Assembly (NCBI RefSeq): GCF_025755255.1
Contig: NZ_JALIEB010000003.1
Location: forward strand, 62,001 to 126,000
Length of the DNA stretch: 64,000 nucleotides
Source of the DNA: Roseobacter sinensis
GTDB lineage: Bacteria > Pseudomonadota > Alphaproteobacteria > Rhodobacterales > Rhodobacteraceae
Reading direction: 5' to 3'
The first letter of the stretch is position 1; the number at the start of each line of letters is the position of its first letter. The position numbers were made by a program, and so were the translations under genes. The notes under the pieces were generated by a model, which worked only from the letters and a program-made list of their open reading frames with translations, did not search any database and had not been told where the DNA came from. Of the stretch, positions 3,138 through 28,018 are shown piece after piece.

Positions 3138-3211
3138 GCGGGTATGGTGAAAAGGTATCACGCGAGCTTCCCAAGCTTAAGTTACGGGTTCGATTCCCGT
3201 TACCCGCTCCA
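3138..3211 (+). tRNA. tRNA-Gly, anticodon CCC
   Basis: A full cloverleaf can be folded: acceptor stem GCGGGTA with TACCCGC, D arm GTGA/TCAC, anticodon loop TTCCCAA giving anticodon CCC, a 4-base variable loop, T arm ACGGG/CCCGT with loop TTCGATT, discriminator T and encoded CCA. The first anticodon-stem pair (C-A) is mismatched. The gene reads GGG codons. A short T-run follows immediately (3215-3219) and is the only visible termination signal. Confidence 0.93.
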
Positions 3212-23977: not shown

Positions 23978-25015
23978 CTATTGGAACATGTCCACCAGAT
24001 CGACCGAACTGCGTTTGTTCAGGTCGTTCTTGTGATGCGTGAGGAAGGTATCGGCCGCGCGCTGCCCTGCCTCCTTGAGGCGTGAGAGGGTAAAGGGCGT
24101 GGGCACAAGTTTGGTCGCCACCGAAAGCTCGTTCATCAGCGCGTCATCGGCCACCATATGGATCAGCACGCGGCTCTTCTGCTCGGTCGAGAGTGTCCCG
24201 CGATCCAGCAGCCGCTGCACGAATTCGATGGCGCGGAGCTCACGCAGCAGCGAGGAATTGAAGCTGATCTCGTTGATCCGGTTCTGGATCGCCTGGGCCG
24301 TGCGCGGCAGCTCGGTCCGCTCCAGCGGGTTGATATTGATGATCAGGATGTCATCGGGCAGCGAGGGGTTGAAGAGCGGAAAGAGCGCCGGGTTGCCGGT
24401 ATAGCCGCCGTCCCAGAAGGCCTCGGTGAGACCGGTCTCGGCATCCTCCACCTCGACCGCCTGGAAGATGGTTGGCAGACAGGCTGAGGCGAGAATCGCC
24501 TCGGTGCTGATCTCGCTATCCTTGAACACGCGCACCTTGCCGTTGCGCACCCGTGTTGCACAGATGAAGAGGCACGGCCCCTTGCCGTTCTCTTCATGCA
24601 CCGCCTCGAAGTCGAACTGTTCCACGATGTCGCGCAGCGGATTGCGATAGAGAGGGCCGTAGGCATAGGGCGAAACGGCGCGCGACCAGGCATCCGCCGC
24701 TATCACGGGCCAGGAGTATTCCAGCGCCTGACTGAAATCGCCCAGCGAAAACGGCAGCATCCAGGCCGGGATCTGCAGATCCGGCCGTGCGCCCACCTCC
24801 CGCCAAAGCCAGTCCAGCCGGTCGCGCGCGCCCTGCCGGCCCCCTTCGATCATGCCAGCCTTGAGCGCGGCCCCATTCAGCGTGCCCGCCGAGGTGCCCG
24901 AGATCGCCGCGATATGGATATCCTCCTCACAGAGGATCCGGTCGAGCACGCCCCAGGTGAAGGCGCCATGTGCGCCGCCGCCCTGCAAGGCCAGATTGAT
25001 CCGTTTGACCGCCAT
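23978..25015 (-). CDS. Patatin-like phospholipase
   Basis: This 345-residue protein is a patatin-family lipid acyl hydrolase. The oxyanion-hole glycine run LQGGGAHGAFTWG is at residues 10-22, the nucleophile elbow GTSAG has Ser42, and the catalytic aspartate is in WDGGYTGNP near residue 203, completing the Ser-Asp dyad. No signal peptide is seen, so it is likely cytoplasmic or delivered by another route. It lies downstream of the 3-hydroxybutyrate dehydrogenase gene on the same strand, 60 bases away. A role in membrane lipid or storage-polymer turnover is possible but not shown. Confidence 0.88.
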   Translation of the reverse strand: MAVKRINLALQGGGAHGAFTWGVLDRILCEEDIHIAAISGTSAGTLNGAALKAGMIEGGRQGARDRLDWLWREVGARPDLQIPAWMLPFSLGDFSQALEYSWPVIAADAWSRAVSPYAYGPLYRNPLRDIVEQFDFEAVHEENGKGPCLFICATRVRNGKVRVFKDSEISTEAILASACLPTIFQAVEVEDAETGLTEAFWDGGYTGNPALFPLFNPSLPDDILIININPLERTELPRTAQAIQNRINEISFNSSLLRELRAIEFVQRLLDRGTLSTEQKSRVLIHMVADDALMNELSVATKLVPTPFTLSRLKEAGQRAADTFLTHHKNDLNKRSSVDLVDMFQ

Positions 25016-25075: not shown

Positions 25076-25861
25076 TCAAAGAGCCGTCCAGCCACCATCG
25101 ACGCTGATCGTTGTGCCGGTGATCTGTGCCGCCGCGTCCGAGCATAGGAACGTCGCCGTCCCACCCATCTGCTCGACCGTTGCGAACTCCTTGGAGGGCT
25201 GGCGTGTCAGCATCACGTTCTCAATCACCTCTTCGCGGCTCATGTCGTATTCCTTCATCGTATCGGGGATCTGCTTTTCGACGATGGGTGTGAGCACATA
25301 GCCCGGGCAGATGGCGTTGGCGGTGATCGGCTCCTTCGCCGTCTCCAGTGCGGTGGTCTTGGTGAGCCCGACGATACCGTGCTTGGCCGCGATATAGGCG
25401 GATTTGTAGGGCGAGGCGGTCAACCCATGGGCGGAGGCGATGTTCACGACGCGCCCCCATCCAGCGCTGCGCATCATCGGCAGGGCGGCCGCGGTGGTGT
25501 GAAAGGCGGAGCTGAGGTTGATTGCGATGATCGCATCCCATTTCTCGACCGGAAATTCGGGGATCGCGGCCACATGCTGGATGCCCGCATTGTTCACCAG
25601 GATGTCACAGCGCCCCGCCGTCTCGATCAGCTGGCGGCACTGATCCCCGTTCGACATATCGGCCTGGATGTAGCGCGCGGCGGTGCCTGTCGTCTCCGAG
25701 ATCTCGCGCGCCAGCGCGTGGTCTTCATCGGCGTCGGTGAAGGAGTTCAGCACGACATCGGCGCCCGCCTTGGCCAGCTCCCACGCGATGCCGAGGCCAA
25801 TGCCCGAATTCGACCCGGTGATGACGGCGGTCTTGCCCGCCAGCGAAATCTCGAATGCCAT
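25076..25861 (-). CDS. bdhA: 3-hydroxybutyrate dehydrogenase
   Basis: This 261-residue short-chain dehydrogenase matches D-3-hydroxybutyrate dehydrogenase, which oxidises 3-hydroxybutyrate from polyhydroxybutyrate breakdown to acetoacetate. The NAD site TGSNSGIG is at residues 15-22; the catalytic set is S143, Y156 and K160 in IASAHG...YIAAK. The central NNAGIQHVAAIPEFP and CPGYVLTPIVEKQI blocks are characteristic. The ATG at 25861 is chosen because the Rossmann strand begins right after it and a GGGAAGGG ribosome site precedes; the longer frame runs into the regulatory inverted repeat. See the repeat at 25893-25915 for possible control. Confidence 0.9.
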   Translation of the reverse strand: MAFEISLAGKTAVITGSNSGIGLGIAWELAKAGADVVLNSFTDADEDHALAREISETTGTAARYIQADMSNGDQCRQLIETAGRCDILVNNAGIQHVAAIPEFPVEKWDAIIAINLSSAFHTTAAALPMMRSAGWGRVVNIASAHGLTASPYKSAYIAAKHGIVGLTKTTALETAKEPITANAICPGYVLTPIVEKQIPDTMKEYDMSREEVIENVMLTRQPSKEFATVEQMGGTATFLCSDAAAQITGTTISVDGGWTAL

Positions 25862-26010: not shown

Positions 26011-26039
26011 AAAAAAAACGCCTGCACGAGGCAGGCGTT
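26011..26039 (-). terminator. Intrinsic terminator of the candidate small RNA
   Basis: A perfect 9-base-pair stem AACGCCTGC / GCAGGCGTT with a 5-base loop is followed on the minus strand by a run of eight Ts (26018-26011). It also insulates bdhA from upstream minus-strand transcription. Confidence 0.85.
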
Positions 26040-26086
26040 AAGTTATTGAGGCAGGTTTCATACAGGCAAGAAACCTATCGAGCAGT
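26011..26086 (-). ncRNA. Candidate small RNA, about 76 nt, with own promoter and terminator
   Basis: On the minus strand a promoter-like pair lies at 26121-26116 (TTGGCC) and 26098-26093 (TATAAC) with an exact 17-base spacer, predicting a start near 26086. Downstream come a hairpin with perfect 7-base arms AGGTTTC/GAAACCT (26076-26070 and 26059-26053) and a 9-base-pair GC-rich stem (26039-26017) followed by eight T residues, a textbook intrinsic terminator. No open reading frame of note fits inside. The terminator cannot serve bdhA, which starts downstream of it. I do not recognise an Rfam family. The hfq gene is in the same window. Confidence 0.55.
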
Positions 26087-26115
26087 GACTTTGTTATAAG
26101 CAATCTCGCGCCTGA

Positions 26116-26121
26116 GGCCAA
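26116..26121 (-). promoter_or_regulatory. Promoter -35 element of the candidate small RNA
   Basis: TTGGCC on the minus strand is 17 bases from TATAAC (26098-26093). The pair resembles a housekeeping sigma-70 promoter (four and five consensus bases). It points away from the solute-binding protein gene. Confidence 0.45.
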
Positions 26122-26130
26122 GCTAAAAGT

Positions 26131-26159
26131 TTGATAAGACGTAAATACCTCAGTAGTCT
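26131..26159 (+). promoter_or_regulatory. Possible promoter of the solute-binding protein gene
   Basis: TTGATA (26131-26136) and TAGTCT (26154-26159) are spaced by 17 bases on the plus strand and would start transcription about 35 bases before the ATG at 26201. The -35 box is good and the -10 box weak. Confidence 0.35.
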
Positions 26160-26200: not shown

Positions 26201-28018
26201 ATGGGTAATGTTTTTTTCCGCCCGCTTTCGCGGTTTGCAGCGGTCGCAGCAGCGATTCTCTGGTGGCAGCCGGTGCTGGCAGAGCCGTCGCATGGGATAT
26301 CTATGTATGGCACCCCGGCTCTCCCACCTGATTTTGTGTCTCTGCCCTACGCCAACCCCGATGCGCCCAAGGGCGGCAGCATCGCTTTGGGCAACTCCGG
26401 CGGTTTCGACAGCCTCAACCCGTTCATCCGCAAGGGCACCGTGCCCTGGCAGTTGCGGTTTTTGACCCATGAGAGCCTGATGGGCCGCTCCTGGGACGAG
26501 CCCTTCACGCTCTACGGGCTGCTGGCCGAATCGGTCGAGGTGCCGGACGACCGGTCCTGGGTGGAATTCACGCTGCGGGAAGAGGCGCGGTTTTCCGACG
26601 GCACCCCGGTGACCGTCGACGATGTGATCTTCAGCTACGAGCTGCTCGGCACCGAAGGTCACCCGCGTTATCTCGGCCTCGCCCAGCAGATCGAGAGCAT
26701 CACCCAGACCGGGCCGCGCAGCCTGCGGATCGCCTTCAACACCGACAATCGCGAGCTTGCGCTGCTGGCAGGGATGCGCCCGATCCTCAGCCGCGCACAA
26801 TGGGAAGGTCGCGATTTCACGAATGCCGAGCTGGCGGATGTGCCCTTGGGCACCGGGCCTTATGTGGTCAGCGATTATGAGGCAGGGCGCTTCGTGCAGC
26901 TCTCCCGCAACCCGGATTACTGGGGTGCGGATCTGCCCTTTCGCCGCGGCACCTTCAACTTCGACGAGATAAGGCTCGATTTCTATGGGGACACTTCGGT
27001 GCTGTTCGAGGCGTTCAAGGGCGGGCAGCTCTCGGCCTTGCGCGAATTCAACGCCGAAAAGTGGCAGACGCAGTATGACTTTCCCGCCGTTGAACGCGGT
27101 GAGGTGGTCAAATCCGAACTGCCGCATGAACAGCCCTCCGGCATCACCGGCTTTGTGATGAACACCCGCAAGCCGCCCTTTGACGACTGGCGCTTACGCG
27201 AGGCGATGATCCAGGCGTTCAACTTCGAATACATCAACGACACGCTCACGGGGGGCGCACAGCCGCGCATCACCTCCTATTTTTCCAATTCCAGACTGGC
27301 CATGCATCCGGGCCCGGCCGATGCGGCGGTCACGGCGCTTCTTGAGCCTTACGCCGAGGACCTGCCGCCGGGAACGCTCGAGGGGTATGAGCTGCCCGTC
27401 ACCGACGGCTCGCTGCGCAATCGCAGGGGCATCCGCGCGGCTCTGAAGCTGTTGGACGAGGCCGGCTGGCACCCCGAGGACGGGGTGATGCGCAACGCCT
27501 CCGGTGCGCCGCTTCAATTCACGGTGCTCCTGGAGCAGAGCAACACCGAAGCACTGGCGATCGCCGATCTCTACCTCGGCGCCCTGAAGAGGCTGGGCGT
27601 CGATGCGCGCGTCGAGACCACCGACAGCGCGCAATTCACCGAGCGTGAGACGGCCTTCGATTTCGACATGACCTATATGCGGCGCGCCGTCTCCCTCTCT
27701 CCGGGCAATGAGCAGCGGTTCTACTGGGGCTCGGAAGCGGCCGAGCAACCCGGCTCGCGCAACCTGATGGGCGTGGCCTCACCCGCCGTCGATGGGATGA
27801 TCGACGCGATGCTCTCCGCCCGCAGTGAAGAGGAGTTCAACACCGCCGTGCGCGCGCTCGACCGGGTGCTGACCGCCGGGCGCTATGTGATCCCCTTCTG
27901 GCAATACACCGATGGGCGGATCGCACATATCCGCGAGATGAAGTATCCCGACTACCTGCCGATCTATGGCGACGGGCCGGAGTATATGCCTCAGGTCTGG
28001 TGGTACGAGCCCTCCTGA
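26201..28018 (+). CDS. Extracellular solute-binding protein family 5 (YejA-like peptide binding)
   Basis: This 605-residue periplasmic protein has a signal peptide ending near residue 27 (AAAILWWQPVLA) and the SBP_bac_5 fold used by dipeptide/oligopeptide ABC importers. Visible blocks include GTPALPPDFVSLPYANPDAPKGG in composition near the N-terminus, the YGLLAESVEVPDD segment, LREEARFSDGTPVTVDDVIFSYELL near 125-150, and LGTGPYVV near 220. The length and opening match the YejA subfamily. No permease or ATPase genes are adjacent, so the transporter subunits must be elsewhere or shared. It converges with the XRE-cupin regulator gene. Confidence 0.88.
   Translation: MGNVFFRPLSRFAAVAAAILWWQPVLAEPSHGISMYGTPALPPDFVSLPYANPDAPKGGSIALGNSGGFDSLNPFIRKGTVPWQLRFLTHESLMGRSWDEPFTLYGLLAESVEVPDDRSWVEFTLREEARFSDGTPVTVDDVIFSYELLGTEGHPRYLGLAQQIESITQTGPRSLRIAFNTDNRELALLAGMRPILSRAQWEGRDFTNAELADVPLGTGPYVVSDYEAGRFVQLSRNPDYWGADLPFRRGTFNFDEIRLDFYGDTSVLFEAFKGGQLSALREFNAEKWQTQYDFPAVERGEVVKSELPHEQPSGITGFVMNTRKPPFDDWRLREAMIQAFNFEYINDTLTGGAQPRITSYFSNSRLAMHPGPADAAVTALLEPYAEDLPPGTLEGYELPVTDGSLRNRRGIRAALKLLDEAGWHPEDGVMRNASGAPLQFTVLLEQSNTEALAIADLYLGALKRLGVDARVETTDSAQFTERETAFDFDMTYMRRAVSLSPGNEQRFYWGSEAAEQPGSRNLMGVASPAVDGMIDAMLSARSEEEFNTAVRALDRVLTAGRYVIPFWQYTDGRIAHIREMKYPDYLPIYGDGPEYMPQVWWYEPS

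Follow-up and report, generated by a model that had tools for sequence, protein, structure and literature searches.

The window analysed here, a 64,000-nucleotide stretch of the Roseobacter sinensis genome, carries a small RNA gene (26011..26087, minus strand) that is very likely an orthologue of stsR, likened to it by partner, family, size and promoter type and not by the letters of the StsR sequence. StsR is reported to be a 72-nt, Hfq-associated, RpoHI/RpoHII-dependent sRNA of R. sphaeroides that binds UpsM, an RNA from the long mraZ (dcw) leader, and restrains cell-division genes in stationary phase (PMC8307010, PMC11354728, PMC8625941). Formerly called RSs0827, it is described as responding to iron limitation and to the late phase of singlet-oxygen stress with induction (PMC8307010, PMC3413700, PMC3688512). 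The evidence computed here consists of the gene anatomy, conservation across the family, covariation in the terminator, a near-perfect site in the organism's own mraZ leader and the conservation of that site. The RNA is very probably of a known kind and well conserved, and it now has a named predicted partner.

All elements of the gene lie on the minus strand. The -35 element TTGGCC (26121-26116), read directly from the sequence, is separated by exactly 17 nt from the -10 element TATAAC (26098..26093). Promoter spacing, conservation from CACTG onward and the terminator delimit the RNA, whose 5' end we place at 26085-26087 and whose 3' end presumably falls within the run of eight Ts at 26011..26018, two of which belong to the terminator stem. 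The core of the RNA runs from CTGCTCGATAGGTTTC to GCCTGTATGAAACCTGCC. Hairpin 1 (26053..26076), assigned from the predicted fold and the conservation of its arms, has a 7-bp stem AGGUUUC/GAAACCU, corresponding in DNA to AGGTTTC (26076-26070) and GAAACCT (26059-26053), with the loop UUGCCUGUAU. The terminator stem-loop (26017..26039), also found by a terminator scan, has the arms AACGCCTGC and GCAGGCGTT in a perfect 9-bp stem with the loop CUCGU (CTCGT in DNA). The two promoter elements, the 7-bp hairpin and the terminator had been described in the first-pass annotation and were confirmed in place. Counted to seven Ts, and on sequence only, the RNA is ~76 nt long; its size is closer to 76 than to 110 nt, the remainder of 26011..26121 being promoter. 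Judged in the same way, from sequence alone, it shares with StsR the character of an orphan sRNA of ~72 nt with its own promoter and intrinsic terminator.

Promoter and terminator patterns by themselves prove little, because the scan counts do not exceed those in shuffled sequence. Between 24500 and 28000, a consensus promoter scan found 0 sites (0.8 in shuffles) and a terminator scan found three, two of them the same site (2.2 +/- 1.8 in shuffles). The folding energy of the RNA is lower than that of shuffles (z = -3.6), with one of 200 shuffles equally good.

Conservation is far beyond chance and, as judged from the alignments and unlike the consensus scans, settles the existence of the RNA. 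We searched 295 family genomes from 294 genera with a 126-base BLAST query that includes the promoter, and 289 of these Rhodobacteraceae genomes matched with an E value of 2e-14 or lower. Six genomes (G033, G133, G147, G155, G166 and G236), which are 71-92% complete, gave no credible BLAST match (E 0.035-0.8). R. sphaeroides apparently lies outside this set, since the best RpoE identity found there was 78%. A second BLAST match to the query was recorded for most family genomes, and these second matches may be the complementary mraZ-leader site discussed below. The GTDB collection contains at least 118 contigs with an exact match to a 33-base core pattern; the contigs listed include Ruegeria, Sulfitobacter, Paracoccus, Rhodovulum and Roseovarius, all Rhodobacteraceae, along with Neomegalonema and a few records whose titles say no more than Alphaproteobacteria.

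When a covariance model built from 30 sequences was run under strict filters against 385 genomes drawn from the class, matches at E 1.1e-20 or better were found in five, all of the same family, and 342 rows of this draw had no match. Eighteen matches at E 2.7e-4 to 9.6e-3 among these genomes were considered as homologues outside the family and taken as chance. Run on 30 family genomes, the model matched 29, each of them once at E 0.001 or better. These 29 model-found RNAs are the fairest set for judging invariance: 27 of them share an identical 40-nt core, and both arms of hairpin 1 are identical in 28. The conserved 5' end of the RNA reads CTGCTCGA. A larger alignment, A2, comprises 65 sequences hand-picked from 117 distinct ones and has 35 invariant columns, a count that is partly built in because the core was fixed in the searches that supplied most of the rows.

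The terminator lies outside the search patterns that fixed the core, and 7 of its 9 stem pairs show changes on both sides in the alignment. For the structure, 50 cells changed on both sides; shuffles gave 12.5, and sliding the structure gave no more than 15. Compensatory change had been anticipated in both hairpins, and this expectation is borne out for the terminator and not for hairpin 1, whose arms are nearly constant. We suggest that hairpin 1 hardly varies because its loop and 3' arm double as the pairing strand. Family-wide conservation and terminator covariation together uphold the earlier proposal of a stand-alone non-coding RNA of ~76 nt with its own promoter and intrinsic terminator.

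Because the published partner of StsR is the mraZ-leader-derived UpsM, we chose the organism's own mraZ leader for a pairing test. The long UpsM leader has been reported as exclusive to Rhodobacteraceae (PMC5089854), and the R. sinensis genome has an UpsM-type long mraZ leader (L150, 1205-1460) on contig G000:C77, which is not the contig of the sRNA. This leader carries GCAGGTTCATACAGGCA ~230 nt before the first MraZ-domain match, and the segment is predicted to form 17 base pairs, with one bulged A, with RNA nt 20-37, the target-pairing region (26051..26068, minus strand). In short-window scoring, with tiles stepped by 4 nt and the leader by 2, the leader reached -30.2 kcal/mol, compared with -22.5 +/- 2.7 for 170 equally long tiles of the window. 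Two of those tiles reached the leader's score, so the case is not built on energy alone. Long RNAduplex scoring of the leader at full length did not discriminate: 9 of 300 shuffles did as well, as did 20 of 342 tiles. The pattern GGTTN{0,1}CATACAGGC matches the 4.9-Mb genome twice, once in the sRNA gene and once in the mraZ leader; the reversed control pattern matches nowhere. A third genomic match of CATACAGGCA (L295) sits inside a reading frame. In the predicted leader fold the pairing site has only four weak pairs and is followed by a terminator-like hairpin of ~14 bp with a short T run. The leader gave no Rfam match above gathering score.

The site is also conserved in other members of the family. 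A search of 61 family genomes yielded MraZ in 52, and we compared the 30 best-scored loci, one per genome, pairing each leader with its own genome's RNA (29 model-found RNAs, and the window-type RNA for G033, which is 74% complete). Of the 30 leaders, 29 contain a complementary site, with uninterrupted complementarity over 11-19 bases; it lies 419-505 nt before the scored MraZ domain in 28 of these and 213 nt before it in G046. The longest complementary run averages 16.1 in leaders, against 10.8 for downstream and 10.1 for antisense controls, and runs of at least 13 contiguous pairs occur in 26, 4 and 2 of 30, respectively. The reported pairing of StsR with UpsM and the dcw 5' leader has, in this predicted complement, a computed counterpart. 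The one leader in which pairing with its own RNA revealed no clear site is that of G029. Its degenerate site scores -16.9 with its own RNA and -21.4 with the window-type RNA, and we claim no compensatory pair there because its own RNA pairs worse. The same genome has the most divergent copy of the RNA (L263), and it is possible that RNA and leader site are drifting together in this lineage.

The exact form of the site varies. The 13-mer GGTTCATACAGGC is present in 32 of the 295 family genomes, and 20 of the 30 leader loci have GGTTTCATACAGGC in its place. Among 30 loci with GGTTCATACAGGC, 14 lie 199-270 nt before a MraZ-like motif (control, 0 of 117) and 16 lie elsewhere; this count used a looser motif, and a stricter one, which missed the R. 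sinensis genome itself, gave 9 of 30. In other genomes, GGTTCATACAGGC alone does not mark only mraZ. The 16 loci away from the motif (within L155-L183) are either chance occurrences or further targets.

Sequence upstream of the RNA is conserved as well. The box CAAACTTTTAGCTTGG (26118..26133, minus strand), which ends in CTTGG, the five bases that hold the -35 element, was recognized by its conservation in the family. Among 168 distinct promoter sequences, CTTGG occurs in 147, TATAA in 135 and CAAACTTTT in 133. In its own genome CAAACTTTTAGCTTGG has one exact match, none at one or two mismatches and two at three mismatches, and it may be a regulator site. By eye, we noticed a partial palindrome, CAAnCTnnnAGnTTG, within it. 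In a few lineages (the L260 and L251 promoters) the CAAACTTTTAG box has decayed, with CTTGG still present at -35. RpoHI/RpoHII promoters are described as having a TTG triplet at -35 and a C/T that starts the -10 element (PMC3441632). The sRNA promoter agrees with this description in both respects, taking the start site we propose. Transcription probably needs RpoHI/RpoHII, to judge from these elements, which are also compatible with sigma-70.

The neighbouring genes bear on several other explanations of the locus. Downstream on the same strand is bdhA (25076..25861), which encodes 3-hydroxybutyrate dehydrogenase (TIGR01963, 358.1 bits against a cut-off of 307.05), and divergent from the RNA is a gene for a family-5 extracellular solute-binding protein (SBP_bac_5; 26201..28018, plus strand; PF00496, E 1.2e-65). 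A gene for a patatin-like phospholipase lies just beyond bdhA (23978-25015, minus strand). Among the 118 sRNA loci in all, the solute-binding protein gene is adjacent and divergent in 103 of 109 with room, and bdhA lies downstream in 82 of 103 with room. This retained gene order would suit an RNA that mainly silences one of its neighbours, as the first-pass annotation had supposed for the peptide-binding gene. A common order can equally reflect a shared intergenic region, and the best predicted pairing is at background level for both neighbours, at -23.4 kcal/mol for the 5' region of the divergent peptide-binding gene and -21.7 kcal/mol for the start region of bdhA (-22.5 +/- 2.7 in 170 window tiles), so that the supposition finds no backing and we regard neighbour silencing as very unlikely. 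The position of the RNA on the bdhA strand, 150 nt upstream, raises the prospect that its hairpins are instead a leader or attenuator of bdhA and not a separate RNA. To this we give hardly any credence: the intrinsic terminator closes the transcript ahead of bdhA, sequence conservation reaches no further than the T run in 30 aligned loci, and the RNA is present at 21 of the 103 loci with room where no bdhA was found close downstream. A reading frame of 7 codons, ATGAAACCTGCCTCAATAACTTAA, begins in the conserved core and might be taken for a tiny peptide, a reading whose probability is close to nil and which we rejected, as codons beyond the core vary in frame among relatives (TCATGA, TCAACAACT and others), the start lies within a hairpin, and no ribosome-binding site was seen.

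A further alternative is that the RNA is a different, undescribed Rhodobacteraceae sRNA that shares the UpsM/dcw site with StsR. The comparison with StsR is by description, and one reported feature of StsR was not recovered as conserved. An rpoE site starting 10 nt after the start codon is reported in R. sphaeroides (PMC8307010); with the window RNA used throughout 30 genomes, we found no conserved rpoE pairing (-23.4 +/- 2.7, compared with -22.3 +/- 3.3 in controls). Against a separate sRNA, the size, the orphan gene with its own terminator, the RpoH-like promoter, the Rhodobacteraceae range and the UpsM partner all fit StsR, and each of the 29 matching genomes has a single model match. We consider a different sRNA to be unlikely, and retain the assignment to StsR.

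If the RNA is StsR, its action can be proposed by analogy. An RpoH-type-fitting promoter would yield an RNA of ~72-76 nt, ended by its intrinsic terminator. The loop and 3' arm of hairpin 1 (UGCCUGUAUGAAACCUGC) would pair with the site in the long dcw (mraZ) 5' leader, and the same strand would pair with an UpsM-type RNA, the presumed shortened product of that leader. Because the loop and 3' arm form the pairing strand, hairpin 1 would have to open upon leader binding. As in R. sphaeroides, pairing might then remodel the leader and expose it to RNase E, lowering dcw expression and slowing growth in stationary phase. RpoHI/RpoHII control, Hfq binding (reported for StsR in PMC8307010), RNase E cleavage and an effect on division are features that the R. 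sphaeroides papers suggest for this RNA.

Control of cell division by one sRNA acting on another, as described for R. sphaeroides, appears to be a built-in feature of most Rhodobacteraceae sampled, among them marine roseobacters and paracocci, and the RNA and its target site have been retained together. More speculatively, StsR could be a near-universal core regulator of the family that is conserved beyond what pairing with UpsM needs. The 5' end CTGCTCGA and the box CAAACTTTTAG, which occurs once in the genome, might then indicate that one or more additional conserved RNA partners exist, as well as a dedicated regulator that binds DNA, and hairpin 1 might be a switch that opens for the leader, locking both of its strands. 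We put this extended proposal forward tentatively, as a possibility somewhat short of even.

At gathering score, the only Rfam 15 match in the window is a tRNA gene (3138-3208, plus strand), and no match was obtained in six related sRNA loci. Since the seven sources tested gave no such match for the RNA, it may go unannotated in many genomes, and the alignment from the present analysis could seed an RNA family. The alphaproteobacterial sRNA BjrC1505 (RF02356) has a weak, gapped similarity to the window RNA and was rejected, as it scores 29.6 bits against a gathering score of 50 and the match runs through the promoter region. RyhB and mmgR (suhB), also below gathering score, gave weaker matches than BjrC1505 and were likewise set aside. 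The closest described RNAs include StsR and UpsM (RSs0682), the sRNA from the dcw-cluster 5' leader. UpsM differs in being the target, encoded on another contig, where the long mraZ leader has a strong terminator-like hairpin. An 84-nt RNA of Paracoccus denitrificans, 'intergenic 134', was reportedly confirmed by RT-PCR and also reported in Rhizobiales (PMC5107571). It is similar in size and in its Rhodobacteraceae distribution, and is possibly the same gene, a lead taken from its description and not its sequence. Copies of the window RNA do occur on large Paracoccus replicons: in four records (pantotrophus, versutus twice and ferrooxidans), the sRNA gene is on replicons of 1.46-2.24 Mb that are filed as plasmids.
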